From Clostridia bacterium (GTDB lineage: Bacteria; Bacillota; Clostridia; Oscillospirales; Acutalibacteraceae), in contig JAFWYB010000060.1 in NCBI GenBank assembly GCA_017517865.1, forward strand, positions 1-49,148: a stretch of DNA of 49,148 bases, in the 5' to 3' direction. Each line of letters opens with the position of its first letter. The stretch's first letter is position 1. This document shows, in pieces, positions 681 through 5,659 of the stretch. The translations under genes were made by a program, and so were the position numbers. Below the pieces are notes generated by a model. The model did not search any database. It worked only from the letters and a program-made list of their open reading frames with translations, and was not told the DNA's origin.

Positions 681-715
681 AAAAAAAGCAGCCGGAATTT
701 TCATCCGACTGCTTA
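681..715 (-). terminator. Terminator of the SCP2/transketolase operon
   Basis: On the minus strand AGCAGTCGG pairs with CCGGCTGCT around a 9-nt loop, followed by seven T. It lies 17 bases past the last gene of the operon. Confidence 0.8.
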
Positions 716-731
716 TTCTTTTCAGAAAATC

Positions 732-1535
732 TTATTTAGCAAGTGCGCCGATTTCAAGCATAAATCCACCGATCTGTGCACCGAATTCGGGACCGCCGTC
801 CATTACGAGACGTCCTGCCTTTGTTGCCTCAAGCATATCGTCGATACTCATAAGAATACCGAGAGCGCTGTCAAGGTTGTTGAAGCGGAGTGTGAAGAAG
901 GGCATTGCTCTCTTGTATTCACCGCGACCTGCTCTTGACTTACCTGCCTTGATGCGGATGAAGGCTGAAACCTGAGGATAACCGTCAACTGCAAAAGCAT
1001 AAACACGGTCCGGGCTCTTTGTTGTCCAGTCCTTGATTTCGGGATGTCCCATCTTGTTAAGCTGGCTGATACCGCTTGAAAGAAGATAGAAATAGCACTT
1101 AACGAGAAGCTCCTTTGTTGCTTCGTCCTTCGGGGGCTCAGTAGCACCGAGAAGGTTAGCCATCTTGAGAAGCACCATTACGAAAGAAACAAGCGTACCT
1201 GCATATTTGATACCTCTGATTTTGGGGATGCCTGCAGGAGTAATCTTGCCCTTGAAGAAATCGTTGAGATTTTCAACGCTCTTGAATTCGAGCTCGATGT
1301 GAGGATCCTCTGTAAGGCAGGTGTGTACGAGCCATTCGCCGCTGTTAACAACGAAGTGCATACCTCTCTTACCGCCTTCAGCTTCGGGGTCAAGGCAGCT
1401 CACCTGAATAACTGCGTGTGCATTTTCAAACTTCTTTTTAAGGGAGGGTACATCGTTTGCGATAACCTTTACAAGCGGCAAAGCAGCATTGAGAAAGATT
1501 TTATTTGAATATAAGGCTTCCTGTGTATGAGCCAT
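732..1535 (-). CDS. SCP2-like lipid-binding protein, last gene of aminotransferase/transketolase operon
   Basis: A 267-aa soluble protein with no signal peptide. Residues about 55-130 follow the SCP2 sterol/lipid-carrier pattern: a strand ending in NSGEWLVHTC, then IELEFKSVENLNDFFKGK, then KIRGIKY. The second half (about 175-265) repeats the pattern in weaker form, with FTLRFNNLDSALGIL then GRLVMDGGPEF and a C-terminal helix. I therefore read it as two SCP2-type folds in tandem. SCP2 domains bind acyl chains, sterols or other hydrophobic ligands. It is the fifth and last gene, 24 bases after the transketolase C half, and is preceded by AAGGAGG. A distant paralogue is the first gene of the same operon. 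The fold assignment is an inference from motif spacing; the ligand is unknown. Confidence 0.6.
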   Translation of the reverse strand: MAHTQEALYSNKIFLNAALPLVKVIANDVPSLKKKFENAHAVIQVSCLDPEAEGGKRGMHFVVNSGEWLVHTCLTEDPHIELEFKSVENLNDFFKGKITPAGIPKIRGIKYAGTLVSFVMVLLKMANLLGATEPPKDEATKELLVKCYFYLLSSGISQLNKMGHPEIKDWTTKSPDRVYAFAVDGYPQVSAFIRIKAGKSRAGRGEYKRAMPFFTLRFNNLDSALGILMSIDDMLEATKAGRLVMDGGPEFGAQIGGFMLEIGALAK

Positions 1536-1559
1536 ATTGTTTGCCTCCTTGTAATATTA

Positions 1560-2567
1560 TTAGAACTCGTCGTCCCAGTTGTCGTCTTCTTCGAAGTCTG
1601 CGTTCATTGTTTCACGAACTGCAGCGATGATACCGTTAGCGTCGATACCTGCATCTGACATAATATCTTCGTGAAGACCGATCATAGCAAAGCCCTTATG
1701 ACCGAGCATCTTGAATGCACAGCCCTTACCGTACTGAGCCATAACCTCAGCAACTGCTGAGCCAAGACCGCCTGCAACGAGATGGTCTTCAACTGTAACG
1801 ATTCTTCTTGTGTCTGAAATAGCCTTCTGAATAGCCTCAACGTCGATGGGGCTGATTGTGTGCATGTTAAGAACGCGAACTGAAAGTCCGTCTGAGTTCT
1901 TAAGGAACTTAGCTGCCTCACGAGCCTGGAATACACAAGAACCGCAAGCGATAACTGTGATATCGGTACCCTCGTGAACCTCAACAGCCTTACCTACCTC
2001 AAAGCCGTAATCCTGATTCTCATAAAGAACGCGGTCAAAGCCACGGTTGATACGGATGTAGTAGGGGCCGAAGTTTTCGTAAGCTGCGTTAACAGCGTTT
2101 GCTGTTTCAAAGCCGTCAGCGGGAACGATAACTGTAAGGTTGGGCATTGCTCTTGTGATTGCAAGGTCAGTGATAGCATGGTGAGTTGAACCTGCCTGAC
2201 CGAAGGATGTACCTGAATGAGTAGCAATAATCTTTGCGTTGACATTCTGATAGCAGATGTCTGTGTGAAGCTGGTCACAGGCTCTCATTGATGTGAATGC
2301 CGAGAAGCCTGAAAGGAAGGGAATCATACCTGCTCTTGCCATACCTGCGGCAACACCGAACATATCCTGCTCTGCGATACCAACGTTGATAACTCTTTCG
2401 GGGCAAACCTTAAGAACGTCACCGAGCTTTGTTGATTTTGCAAGGTCAGCTGTGATAGCAACAACCTTGGGGTCCTTTAAAATGATGTCAGCAAGTGCCT
2501 TACCGTAAATTTCAGCTGTGGAAAGCTCAGTCTGGTCAACTGCTGTATAAACAAATCCGCCTGCCAT
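1560..2567 (-). CDS. Transketolase, C-terminal subunit (split form)
   Basis: A 335-aa protein with the Pyr and C-terminal domains of transketolase. GIAEQDM (63-69) carries the catalytic Glu66 that activates thiamine diphosphate. The HSGTSFG...GSTHHAITD block (117-132) and IVPADG follow. It pairs with the N-terminal subunit encoded just upstream (2 bases apart, SD GGAGGG) to form a complete enzyme that moves a two-carbon ketol unit to an aldehyde. Odd point: the usual G-E/P-D-G-x-T-H motif reads G-Q-A-G-S-T-H (123-129). The acceptor-hydroxyl-sensing Asp of ordinary transketolases is therefore Ala125. The tail is acidic. Codon choice (CGT, GGT, AAC, ATC) resembles gapA, implying high expression. 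The true substrate is unlikely to be standard pentose phosphates. Confidence 0.85.
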   Translation of the reverse strand: MAGGFVYTAVDQTELSTAEIYGKALADIILKDPKVVAITADLAKSTKLGDVLKVCPERVINVGIAEQDMFGVAAGMARAGMIPFLSGFSAFTSMRACDQLHTDICYQNVNAKIIATHSGTSFGQAGSTHHAITDLAITRAMPNLTVIVPADGFETANAVNAAYENFGPYYIRINRGFDRVLYENQDYGFEVGKAVEVHEGTDITVIACGSCVFQAREAAKFLKNSDGLSVRVLNMHTISPIDVEAIQKAISDTRRIVTVEDHLVAGGLGSAVAEVMAQYGKGCAFKMLGHKGFAMIGLHEDIMSDAGIDANGIIAAVRETMNADFEEDDNWDDEF

Positions 2568-2569
2568 TA

Positions 2570-3448
2570 TTATTTGCCCTCCTTTTCTGCACGAGCAACA
2601 CGAGCCTTATAGTCCTCTTCAAGTTCTTTGTTGAACTTTTCAAAGCGTGCATCGTCGATTGCACCGTAATGCCATGTGTAGTCGCCTTCGATTGACTTGA
2701 TACCGGCACCCTTCTTTGTATCCATAAGAATACATGTGGGAGCACACTTTTCCTTTGAACGCTCGATAGCTATGTCGATAGCGTTGCAAAGCTCACCGAT
2801 GTTGTTACCGTCAACAACAATTGTGTTGAAGCCGAAAGCTGTCATCTTGTCTGCAAGAGGCTCAAGCTTCTTGATGTCTTCGGTGTTACCGTCGATCATA
2901 TTGTGGTTTCTGTCGATAAATACGATACAGTTGGAAAGCTGATAGTGGTTGATTGTCATAAAGCCTTCCCAGCATGAGCCTTCACCGAGCTCGCCGTCAC
3001 CGGTAACAACGTATGTAAGATAATCCTTACCGAGAAGTCTTGCTGCAAGTGCTGTACCTGCTGCAATTGAGGGACCGTGACCGAGTGAGCCTGTTGATGC
3101 GTCAACGCCTACAACCTTGTTTGAGTCAAGATGCATACCCATCTTTGAGCCTGAAAGGTTGAAGGACTTAAGCATTTCAACATCGTTGAAGCCCTTATCG
3201 CAGAGCACGGGAGCGTAAGCAATAGCTGCGTGACCCTTTGAAAGGATGAAGCGGTCTCTGTCTTCCCACTTGGGATCGTCAACCTTGATGTTGAGATACT
3301 TGTGATAGAGAACGGTAAGAAGGTCCATTACGGACATACCGCCGCCGAAATGGCCGCTGCCTGCCCATACAGTTGTCTGAACTGTAAGCTTACGAAGCTC
3401 GTAAGCCTTTTTTTCAAGGGCAAGCCATTCGTTTTTTGAAAGTGGCAT
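2570..3448 (-). CDS. Transketolase, N-terminal (thiamine diphosphate) subunit
   Basis: A 292-aa protein with the PP domain of a split transketolase. GSGHFGGGMS and LSKGHAA carry the conserved histidines, and GSLGHGPS is the third conserved loop. GDGELGEG (about 150) through DRNHN is the Mg2+/thiamine diphosphate motif. The ATG at 3448 is preferred to an in-frame ATG five codons upstream, because GGAGG lies 8 bases before it. It follows the aminotransferase by 72 bases and is directly followed by the C-terminal half. Split transketolases occur in archaea and many Clostridia for pentose metabolism. Here the flanking aminotransferase and SCP2-like genes point to a specialised biosynthetic role. 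Confidence 0.88.
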   Translation of the reverse strand: MPLSKNEWLALEKKAYELRKLTVQTTVWAGSGHFGGGMSVMDLLTVLYHKYLNIKVDDPKWEDRDRFILSKGHAAIAYAPVLCDKGFNDVEMLKSFNLSGSKMGMHLDSNKVVGVDASTGSLGHGPSIAAGTALAARLLGKDYLTYVVTGDGELGEGSCWEGFMTINHYQLSNCIVFIDRNHNMIDGNTEDIKKLEPLADKMTAFGFNTIVVDGNNIGELCNAIDIAIERSKEKCAPTCILMDTKKGAGIKSIEGDYTWHYGAIDDARFEKFNKELEEDYKARVARAEKEGK

Positions 3449-3520
3449 AATGTTTTCCTCCATAAATCATTTTATATAATACCCTTCCCGTCTCAGAGAA
3501 GGGTACGTTTCACATTTTTA

Positions 3521-4786
3521 TCAGCCGAAAATTTCGGGATGGTTTTTTGCTACTATGCCGAAGCATTCCTCTGCAACTGCAATTGTGTGCTTGATATCCT
3601 TATCGGAAAGAGCAGCGTTGATGAAGTGGTTGTGGTGAGAAGCAAGGAAAATACCTCTTGAAACCATTTCAGCAATCCACTCCTGATGAAGGAGCATGCT
3701 GTCATCGTTGGCTATTCTGAGATAGAACAGTGCGGGTGCACCTGAAACAACAAGGTCGATACCGTGTTCCTTACCTGCTGCAACAAGACCGTTGCAGAGC
3801 TTTTCACCCTTCTGCTTAAACATTGTGGGAATGTCAAGAGCCTTCATCTTGTTGATGTTTGCAATACAAGCTGCAAAGGGCACTGCGCTGAGCCAGTAGG
3901 AGCCTGTATATGCAAGAGCACTCATTGAGCCCTTAAGGAATTCCTTACCGCAGATAGCTGACATATTGTAGCCGTTTGCAAGAGCCTTACAGAAGCAGAT
4001 AAGGTCTGCCTCGAAGCCGAAGAAATGGTCTGAACCGGCGAGGTCAAGACGGAAGCCTGCACGAACGTCGTCAACGATGAGAACGATGTCGTTCTTTGTA
4101 CAGATTTCTCTTACCTTGGGCCAGAAGTCCTTTTCGGGGAATGCGTTATCGTGGAAGTTACCGTGATCATAGGGCTGAGCTATGATACAGGCAATTTCAT
4201 TTTTGTTTTCTTCGATTGTCTTTTCAAGAAGAGGAATATCGTTCCAGGGAAGCATAATGTTGTTTGCAACATCCTCGGGAAGTACGCCCGGATAGTCAAT
4301 CTTCTGGCACCAGGGTGAAACACCGTGATAGTAGCCTGAGAACATAATGATCTTCTTTCTGTGGGTATATGCTCTTGCGCACATAATAGCGCCCTGAGTA
4401 GCGTCGTTACCGTTCTTTGCAAAGAAAGCCCAGTCAGCAGTAGCAACCGTATCAACAAGAAGCTCAGCACATTCAAGCATAACCTTGCCGGGCTGGGTTG
4501 TGCAGTTACCTAAAGCGATCTGCTTGAGAGCAGCAGCGTCAACATCGGGATCGCAGTAACCGAGTACGTTGGGACCGTAAGCACACATATAGTCAATGTA
4601 CTTGTTGCCGTCAACGTCCCATACGTATGTACCCTTTGCCTTTTCTGCAAACATAGGCCACTTGTTTACGGGAATGAACTGACCTTCTGCAGGACCCAGA
4701 TGACCGTAAATACCTGAAGGTATTACTTTTGTTGCTCTTGTGAACATTTCTCTTGATTTTTCTGTGTTATAAATAGGAAAACTCAT
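3521..4786 (-). CDS. Class III (glutamate-1-semialdehyde-like) PLP aminotransferase
   Basis: A 421-aa fold-type I aminotransferase. Visible family features are KNGNDATQGAIMCAR (phosphate-binding region), GYYHG (151-155), DDVRAGFR with the PLP-nitrogen Asp239, and FCKALANGY with the Schiff-base Lys267. TGSYWLSAVPFAA corresponds to the small-subunit contact loop. The usual E-P before the Asp motif is Q-P (IIAQP). It resembles HemL-type aminomutases and sugar or lipid aminotransferases, not ornithine-type enzymes. No other haem-synthesis gene is nearby, so HemL itself is unlikely. It is preceded by TAAGGAGG and starts 12 bases after the first SCP2-like gene. Likely job: amination of the ketone or aldehyde made by the adjacent transketolase (inference). 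Confidence 0.85.
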   Translation of the reverse strand: MSFPIYNTEKSREMFTRATKVIPSGIYGHLGPAEGQFIPVNKWPMFAEKAKGTYVWDVDGNKYIDYMCAYGPNVLGYCDPDVDAAALKQIALGNCTTQPGKVMLECAELLVDTVATADWAFFAKNGNDATQGAIMCARAYTHRKKIIMFSGYYHGVSPWCQKIDYPGVLPEDVANNIMLPWNDIPLLEKTIEENKNEIACIIAQPYDHGNFHDNAFPEKDFWPKVREICTKNDIVLIVDDVRAGFRLDLAGSDHFFGFEADLICFCKALANGYNMSAICGKEFLKGSMSALAYTGSYWLSAVPFAACIANINKMKALDIPTMFKQKGEKLCNGLVAAGKEHGIDLVVSGAPALFYLRIANDDSMLLHQEWIAEMVSRGIFLASHHNHFINAALSDKDIKHTIAVAEECFGIVAKNHPEIFG

Positions 4787-4798
4787 TATAATACCTCC

Positions 4799-5560
4799 TT
4801 ATGCAAGATAGAGTGCAACTCTGTCAAGAATTCTGTTTACGTTGTCGATCATATTGATAAGACCATGCATTTCAACAAGACCTTCACCGATTGAAGCGAT
4901 AGCGTTGATTTTACCGTCGAAGAGAGCTCTGGCAACGCGGATATCACAGAACTGCATCTGTGAACGGAATGCTTCCGGCTTCTGCTTGATTGTTACCATA
5001 TGACTGTCCTTAACGCGGATTGTAGCACCTACGCAGTCCTTGATGGAAACATCGATAATACCGTCGGGAATAAGTGAAGCACTGAACTTACCGATTTCGT
5101 CGTTGTTACCGATCTGTGAAAGAGCAACAGTGATAACATAGAACATAAGCTTTGTGCTGATTTCAAAGAACTTCTCATCCTTGAGGTCTTCCTCGGAAGC
5201 TCTCAGGTACTTTGAAAGAATATCGGTAAGGGGAATGAACTTGCCGAGAAGGAAGCCTATTTTTGTAAAGCCCTTCATGGGAAGTGCGGAACCGGTACCG
5301 TCAACCATAGCGTTGAATTTTTCGGGTGTTGAGAAGGGAAGAAGCACATCGCAGTTTTTGATGCCCTGCTCCATTCTGCATCTGCCGTTTTTGAAAATAA
5401 GAGTAGCACTGGGACCGCCTGTAACATCAAGACCGATAGCAACGGGCTTCTTTGTCTTAACAAGGTCACTTGCCTCTTTATCAAGCTCGCAGAGATTTTC
5501 AATTGCACCCAGAACAGCATACATATTTATATATGCCAGGGTTTTTGCATCTGTCATCAT
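4799..5560 (-). CDS. SCP2-like lipid-binding protein, first gene of operon
   Basis: A 253-aa cytosolic protein. Residues about 40-140 match the SCP2 pattern: ATLIFKNGRCRMEQG, then CDVLLPFSTPEKFNAMVDG, then MKGFTKIGFL and a helix reaching LSKYL. The C-terminal half (about 165-253) looks like a second SCP2-type unit, with IDVSIKD, DIRVARALFDGKINAIAS and VEMHGLINMI. It probably binds or presents a hydrophobic substrate for the enzymes encoded after it. The start is set by AGGAGG 9 bases before the first of two adjacent ATG codons. A near-consensus promoter lies about 75 bases upstream. The ligand and exact biochemical role are unknown. Confidence 0.6.
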   Translation of the reverse strand: MMTDAKTLAYINMYAVLGAIENLCELDKEASDLVKTKKPVAIGLDVTGGPSATLIFKNGRCRMEQGIKNCDVLLPFSTPEKFNAMVDGTGSALPMKGFTKIGFLLGKFIPLTDILSKYLRASEEDLKDEKFFEISTKLMFYVITVALSQIGNNDEIGKFSASLIPDGIIDVSIKDCVGATIRVKDSHMVTIKQKPEAFRSQMQFCDIRVARALFDGKINAIASIGEGLVEMHGLINMIDNVNRILDRVALYLA

Positions 5561-5630: not shown

Positions 5631-5659
5631 ATTTTATCAAATTGCTTGCATTATGTCAA
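5631..5659 (-). promoter_or_regulatory. Strong sigma-A promoter of the SCP2/transketolase operon
   Basis: TTGACA (5654-5659) and TAAAAT (5631-5636) are separated by 17 bases, the closest to consensus of any promoter seen here except that of the riboswitch-ATPase. The short leader contains small competing hairpins (ACCC-GCA-GGGT and GTGAG-CGGTTA-CTCAC) just before the ribosome binding site. Confidence 0.8.

Follow-up and report, generated by a model that had tools for sequence, protein, structure and literature searches.

Can a sphingoid-type long-chain base be made without serine palmitoyltransferase (SPT)? This question is raised by a group of five minus-strand genes in a stretch of 49,148 nucleotides from a Clostridia bacterium (contig JAFWYB010000060.1). 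This stretch, referred to here as the window, is an entire contig (C58) of a 2.69 Mb genome that is 95.6% complete (G000). The genes encode two tandem SCP2-like proteins (SCP2-A and SCP2-B), a class III aminotransferase (AT), and the N and C halves of a split transketolase (TK-N and TK-C). A first-pass annotation had proposed that they form an operon that bypasses SPT. We rate as about even the chance that the product of this operon is a sphingoid-type long-chain base formed independently of SPT.

The substrates, product, direction, and donor that we infer are as follows. The split transketolase would take a two-carbon hydroxyacetyl unit, most simply from hydroxypyruvate, and the resulting hydroxyacetyl-thiamine diphosphate (ThDP) would react with a long-chain aldehyde, forming a 1,3-dihydroxy-2-ketone. 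The AT, which resembles the aminotransferase FumI, would aminate C2 to form a 2-amino-1,3-diol, with the two tandem SCP2 proteins serving as carriers or presenters of the hydrophobic aldehyde and ketone. With serine as the amino donor, the AT step would regenerate hydroxypyruvate for the transketolase step, so that serine and the aldehyde would yield the base and CO2, which is the carbon and nitrogen balance of SPT and KDSR. A fuller proposal is that gut Clostridia have a second, wholly different sphingoid-base route, a natural transketolase-transaminase cascade built around a lipid-presenting tandem SCP2 pair, in which serine gives the nitrogen and (as hydroxypyruvate) two carbons, and SPT-KDSR and TK-SCP2-B are interchangeable modules on an AT/SCP2-A core. 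This fuller proposal is tentative and is considered somewhat unlikely.

The operon is linked to sphingoid bases by the genes that accompany AT and SCP2-A. This pair was first noticed at two loci (L037 and L039), where its neighbors are an alpha-oxoamine synthase and a short-chain reductase. The best NCBIfam model for the two synthases is SPT (NF047600; 516 and 536 bits, under the cut-off of 640), and the best model for the two reductases is KDSR (NF049977; 218 and 229 bits, under the cut-off of 400). In the Protein Data Bank (PDB), the L037 synthase matches the SPT 3a2b best (402 bits), while other SPTs reach 292 bits and BioF/KBL-type enzymes 278 bits. A third SPT-type operon (L041) was recognized by its likeness to L037.

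The distribution of these genes was determined in 295 genomes of the order, described as drawn evenly, of which 226 have a completeness of 90% or more and a contamination of 5% or less. SCP2-B was used as the order-wide marker of the operon transketolase, and AT was called at an E-value of 1e-70 or better. SCP2-A is found in 11 of the 295 genomes and AT in the same 11; SCP2-B is found in six genomes, all among these 11 carriers. Operon carriers had been expected to lack SPT, and the searches agree with this: an SPT-like query found none in the five SCP2-B carriers of the window's family, none in the sixth (G052), and none in the 34 genomes of the window's genus, including G000. G052 says little in this respect because its genome is 60% complete; it carries SCP2-B, TK-C, and TK-N on one contig and SCP2-A and AT on another. 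As a positive control, the same query matches a genome from another genus of the same family (G257) at 73% identity.

An SPT-like gene is present in all five AT/SCP2-A carriers without SCP2-B, and SCP2-B and SPT occur together in none of the 11 carriers (p 0.002, kinship ignored). In three of the SPT-type genomes (G270, G112, and G126), SPT and a KDSR-like gene adjoin SCP2-A and AT, and no gap up to SPT or AT exceeds 33 bases. SPT-KDSR follows AT in G112 and G126, i.e., it takes the slot that TK-N, TK-C, and SCP2-B occupy in the window, and it lies on a different contig from AT/SCP2-A in G036 and G041. The SPT query matches 60 of the 295 genomes, 41 of them at 49% identity or more (one broken fragment counted) and 19 only at approximately 34-40%. 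SPT usually occurs without AT (36 of 41 genomes). Among the 289 genomes without SCP2-B, SPT is present in five of five AT carriers versus 36 of 284 others (Fisher p 4.6e-5, kinship ignored). The five SPT-type carriers represent three families and four genera, and the six transketolase-type carriers represent two families. Across the order sample, AT/SCP2-A was seen neither without SPT or transketolase nor with both, and SCP2-B was not seen without AT. As judged from gene content, the alternation of SPT and transketolase beside the same AT/SCP2-A pair apparently ties the operon to sphingoid-base metabolism.

KDSR-like genes are distributed more widely. Such a gene is adjacent to SPT at 20 of the 22 SPT loci fetched (among loci L043-L073 and L092-L110). 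In addition, although SPT was not found in the 34 genus genomes, 28 of them, including G000, encode a KDSR-like short-chain dehydrogenase/reductase (SDR) with 46-57% identity to the SPT-linked protein (loci L135-L161). Its neighbors differ among the seven loci examined, and the other five transketolase genomes contain no SDR above 38% identity to the SPT-linked protein; for these reasons, KDSR was dropped as a member of the operon module. The KDSR-like gene of G000 itself (G000:C65:5788-6571, minus strand; L133) is 53% identical to the SPT-linked one and is split into two overlapping frames, which indicates a frameshift or an assembly error. No SPT was found in the 12 kb fetched around it. Most other genus genomes have uninterrupted copies. 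A broken SPT-like gene was also observed at G271:C25:6265-7429, in two pieces, one of which has two internal stops.

The acceptor site of the transketolase provides another line of evidence. The operon transketolases were aligned with E. coli TktA (whose numbering is used here), the housekeeping split transketolase, and two solved transketolases, and then with 21 of the 30 housekeeping split transketolases of the genus. The 52 operon rows represent 33 distinct TK-C stretches, with the window present twice and other genomes perhaps too. Catalytic residues H26, H66, H100, D155, N185, H261, E411, and H473 are kept in all 52 operon rows, as are H461 and R520. D469 is replaced by Ala in all 52 rows, and R358, which binds the acceptor phosphate, is replaced by Ala in 49, Ser in two, and Thr in one; both residues are kept in all 21 housekeeping rows. 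All 52 operon rows, and none of the housekeeping rows, have Asn for R91, Leu for P101, His for Q118, and Tyr for G262. In the operon rows, G99 becomes Met (44) or Ile (8), P27 becomes Ile (28), Phe (19), Leu (4), or Val (1), and E468 becomes Gln (51) or Thr (1), and none of the 21 housekeeping rows is changed at these positions. The operon enzyme has the domains and catalytic residues of a split transketolase and lacks R358 and D469, the acceptor residues of sugar-phosphate transketolases.

In E. coli transketolase, D469 is reported to contact R91, H100, G99, and H26, and the D469T variant has raised activity on an aliphatic aldehyde (PMC6310800). This substitution is described as making space and breaking the salt bridge to R91 (PMC5073344). 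In the yeast enzyme, where R528 binds phosphate, activity on aliphatic aldehydes is reported to rise 50- to 100-fold with D477E, a change at the equivalent of D469 (PMC5573996). Wild-type transketolases are reported to prefer 2R-hydroxyaldehydes (PMC10787763). Therefore, the residue cluster that engineers altered for aliphatic aldehydes is the same cluster that is naturally altered in the operon transketolase, whose predicted acceptor site departs from those of sugar-phosphate transketolases in the direction expected for a hydrophobic aldehyde.

The AT gives its best PDB match with FumI (6hbs; 282 bits versus 178 for the next, a glutamate-1-semialdehyde aminomutase). Identity to FumI is 35-41% over 29 AT rows, approximately 36% for the window AT and higher for SPT-linked ATs, and the motifs CAYGPN, KNGxDAT, YHGxSPW, DDVRAGFR, and HNxF are common to both. 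An assignment as HemL was rejected (NCBIfam 230.7 bits versus a cut-off of 398; TIGR00713 211.9 versus 527.3). On sequence comparison, the AT is closer to FumI than to glutamate-1-semialdehyde aminomutase. FumI is reported to use pyruvate as the acceptor of the C2-amine that it removes from hydrolysed fumonisin B1 (PMC2933618), and fumonisins are described as structurally similar to sphinganine (PMC9858248). SPT-linked and transketolase-linked ATs separate in an unrooted AT tree. The outgroup branches in this tree sum to approximately 10 changes per column and the FumI branch to 3.6; because these branches are very long, no root and no order of events are taken from the tree, and the position of FumI beside an SPT-linked AT is not trusted. 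In addition, a FumI-like aminotransferase on an Agrobacterium plasmid (L196:2107-7221) lies one gene from a fused 2-oxoacid dehydrogenase alpha/beta protein, which is also a ThDP enzyme.

The label "SCP2-like" given in the first-pass annotation finds weak support in the sequences and better agreement in structure models. The window SCP2-A scores 13.3 bits against PF02036, below the cut-off of 21.3, and SCP2-B gives no hit; at E-values up to 1, SCP2 hits are obtained for eight of 16 SCP2-A rows (best 8.7e-5) and for none of 12 SCP2-B rows. SCP2-A and SCP2-B are related to each other (E 5e-4; profile probability 95.8%, E 7.5e-9). The SCP2-A profile found nothing significant among the sequences of solved structures (best E 0.44). 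The predicted structures of both proteins match SCP2 folds, so that this part of the claim holds up in the models. The fold-match rows of SCP2-A span mainly residues 2-124, and its second half is presumed to have an SCP2 fold because of its profile kinship to the first half and the SCP2-B match.

The five-gene operon is real and is conserved as a unit with differing flanks, as had been predicted. A search for SCP2-A in genome contigs gave 18 loci, all labelled as metagenome-assembled Clostridia, Oscillospiraceae, or Ruminococcaceae, many with ruminant gut samples named in their titles; with 10 loci from same-order genomes, 28 were compared. AT, TK-N, and TK-C lie beside SCP2-A at 21 of these 28 loci, and SCP2-B is also present at 20 of the 21, the remaining one ending at a contig edge. 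SCP2-A and AT occur without transketolase at six loci, and one locus is cut off directly after SCP2-A. Each of the five genes recurs in 16 or 17 of 17 transketolase loci, the G052 locus being the transketolase half only. True flanking genes are common to at most three of the 17, and the other families found in at least four are frames inside operon genes. Within the genus, an operon-type TK-N (E 1e-100 or better) is found in 29 of 34 genomes. AT, checked in the genus only beside transketolase, is adjacent at 27 of the 29 loci, and the other two are at contig ends. A second split TK-N, approximately 38-41% identical, is found in 30 of the 34 genomes, with the copy of G000 on C32. Because most genus genomes, including G000, have this housekeeping split transketolase, the window transketolase is regarded as an extra, specialized copy. 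AT was found in three of 391 genomes of a class-wide sample, namely the window's genome, G036, and G606. At three transketolase-operon loci (L031:5965-6756, L032:5901-6692, and L036:17266-18321), a second class III aminotransferase, approximately 28-29% identical, lies nearby, and a gene common to these loci (L031:4181-5395 and relatives) resembles a class II aldolase by eye.

Several observations weigh against an SPT-independent synthesis. AT and SCP2-A accompany SPT in five of the 41 SPT genomes, where amination is not needed, and AT beside SPT is not explained by a simple replacement of SPT and KDSR with transketolase and AT. Perhaps the pair is kept in these genomes as a path to a 2-ketone, for base turnover, or as a mid-stage of a module swap. 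G606, which belongs to another order (C31; loci L112 and L134), has AT, SCP2-A, and a KDSR-like gene (50%), with no SPT or operon transketolase in the 33 kb fetched, the only part of the genome searched; it is a possible third arrangement of AT/SCP2-A. The S385, H461, and R520 positions are kept in the operon transketolase, and the S385 position is no guide because housekeeping split transketolases have Ala there. The engineered aliphatic variants encountered change Asp to Glu or Thr, not to Ala. Plasmid proteins, bacterial and one haloarchaeal, are approximately 34-42% identical to the L037 AT among the 15 listed of 181 records, and the three plasmid contexts opened contain class II aldolase and carbohydrate kinase genes, an ABC transporter, or 2-oxoacid dehydrogenase genes. 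Because these contexts resemble small-molecule metabolism, kinship to FumI alone is no proof of a lipid substrate. The proposed SPT bypass therefore stands in part: the conserved neighborhood, the failure to find SPT, and the predicted SCP2 folds agree with it, whereas a simple swap leaves the AT of five SPT genomes unexplained.

The same genes could act in sphingoid-base breakdown, in which AT would strip imported bases, whether from the host, the diet, or bacteria, of their C2-amine, and the transketolase would split the 1,3-dihydroxy-2-ketone into a fatty aldehyde and a hydroxyacetyl unit for an acceptor. The nearest characterized relative, FumI, is reported to run in the deaminating direction, transketolase reactions are described as reversible (PMC5573996), and many carriers come from animal gut samples. 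However, breakdown leaves unexplained why the same AT/SCP2-A pair adjoins base-making SPT and a KDSR-like gene; its second half-reaction would require a polar acceptor, although the operon transketolase has lost R358 and D469, and across 17 loci the operon has no additional conserved neighbor. Breakdown is considered unlikely. A common end product derived from the 2-ketone, e.g., a long-chain 1,2,3-triol, would account for the occurrence of AT with SPT, as SPT, KDSR, and AT would reach it by deamination and the transketolase directly. In that case, AT would be superfluous with transketolase, yet it adjoins transketolase at all 21 transketolase loci and at all genus loci except the two at contig ends, while G052 has AT on another contig; moreover, no ketone reductase is conserved beside the operon. 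Synthesis of a base fits better because AT is found with transketolase wherever visible and is optional with SPT, and the chance of a ketone end product is considered slim.

Acyl-CoA acceptors are unusual for transketolases, which counts against an acyl thioester as the acceptor. With such an acceptor, the transketolase would give a 1-hydroxy-2,3-diketone, AT would convert this to 3-ketosphinganine, and the base would be completed by a KDSR-like reductase, so that transketolase and AT would replace SPT alone. The KDSR-like SDR of most genus genomes, in which SPT was not found, is in line with this scheme, but its gene lies outside the operon among variable neighbors, the other five transketolase genomes have no close copy, and the copy of G000 is interrupted by a frameshift. 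This scheme is quite improbable. A non-fatty substrate is judged to be equally doubtful; here the operon would aminate a sugar, an isoprenoid-attached polyol, or some other moderately hydrophobic aldehyde, as the plasmid AT relative between aldolase and kinase genes and the retained S385, H461, and R520 positions would allow. The SPT alternation, the predicted SCP2 folds, and the replacement of R91, G99, P101, and P27 by Asn, Met/Ile, Leu, and Ile/Phe/Leu/Val, respectively, argue against it.

Compared with known systems, synthesis of a base by the operon would resemble SPT-KDSR in its product. A review describes SPT as the enzyme that opens sphingolipid synthesis and as its committed step (PMC6148460). 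The same 2-amino-1,3-diol head would result from both routes, which alternate around the AT/SCP2-A pair, but they have no enzyme in common, SPT being a pyridoxal phosphate-dependent alpha-oxoamine synthase that uses acyl-CoA and the operon enzyme a ThDP-dependent transketolase. FumI, an aminopentol aminotransferase, serves fumonisin breakdown, whereas the operon AT is paired with a transketolase; to our knowledge, no transketolase partner is known for FumI. The operon transketolase has the two-chain build and catalytic residues of both the Carboxydothermus hydrogenoformans split transketolase (6yak/6yaj) and the housekeeping one of the genus but, unlike them, has lost the polar acceptor residues R91, R358, E468, and D469. 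SCP2 fold matches of the operon proteins include UbiJ and an SCP2-like domain found in alkylsulfatases, proteins whose work involves a lipid or an alkyl chain; the operon has two tandem-SCP2 proteins as separate genes. An engineered cascade has the same reaction order, transketolase and then transaminase. It is man-made and uses short or aromatic aldehydes, whereas the operon would provide a natural counterpart for long chains that includes SCP2 proteins. Published transketolase-transaminase work aimed at aminodiols exists (PMC5073344, PMC10787763), and D469/D477 variants are reported to take aliphatic aldehydes (PMC6310800, PMC5573996).

The enzyme families are each known, and what would be new is the pathway and the exchange of SPT and transketolase on a shared core. 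Literature searches, with bioRxiv and most subscription journals outside their coverage, found no transketolase-based or SPT-free route to sphingoid bases and no paper on sphingolipid synthesis or SPT in Clostridia; a search on split transketolase also found no paper. The SPT gene is commonly used to call which bacteria make sphingolipids. If the pathway is real, an SPT-based census would miss sphingolipid producers in the rumen and gut. It would also show clearly how unrelated enzymes can arrive at one class of product, and chemists would gain a natural transketolase for long aliphatic aldehydes with a matching transaminase.

Table 1. Features of the five-gene operon and its putative signals, with positions in the window
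Feature	Position	Strand	Basis
Promoter-like site TTGACA-17-TAAAAT, TG before second hexamer	5631..5659	-	11/12 positions; consensus match only
SCP2-A, tandem SCP2-like protein, 253 aa	4799..5560	-	Open reading frame; structure model matches SCP2 folds
AT, class III aminotransferase, FumI/glutamate-1-semialdehyde aminomutase branch, 421 aa	3521..4786	-	Pfam; best PDB match 6hbs (FumI)
TK-N, transketolase N half (ThDP domain)	2570..3463, likely start 3448	-	Pfam; ribosome site
TK-C, transketolase C half, Ala at E. coli R358 and D469 positions	1560..2567	-	Pfam; alignment
SCP2-B, tandem SCP2-like protein, 267 aa	732..1535	-	Structure model; in the order sample, only with operon-type transketolase
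Intrinsic-terminator-like hairpin and T-run	686..714	-	Sequence scan

The reading frames and spacing of the five genes were confirmed (Table 1). The gaps between them are 12, 57 (72 with the later TK-N start), 2, and 24 bases, and a GGAGG-type ribosome site precedes all five genes; that of TK-N fits a start at 3448, not 3463. The two transketolase halves exceed the Pfam cut-offs (PF00456 137.6 bits, PF02779 134.2, and PF02780 86.7), as does the class III aminotransferase. The first-pass annotation had also claimed one promoter and one terminator. Matching sites are present, but they are weak evidence taken alone, given the counts in the window versus shuffled sequences (promoter-like sites, 10 versus 7.6; terminator-like sites, 9 versus 5.2). 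Just past the terminator, with a PepSY match that is weak and under the cut-off, a small secreted-looking protein is encoded at 172-573 on the minus strand.

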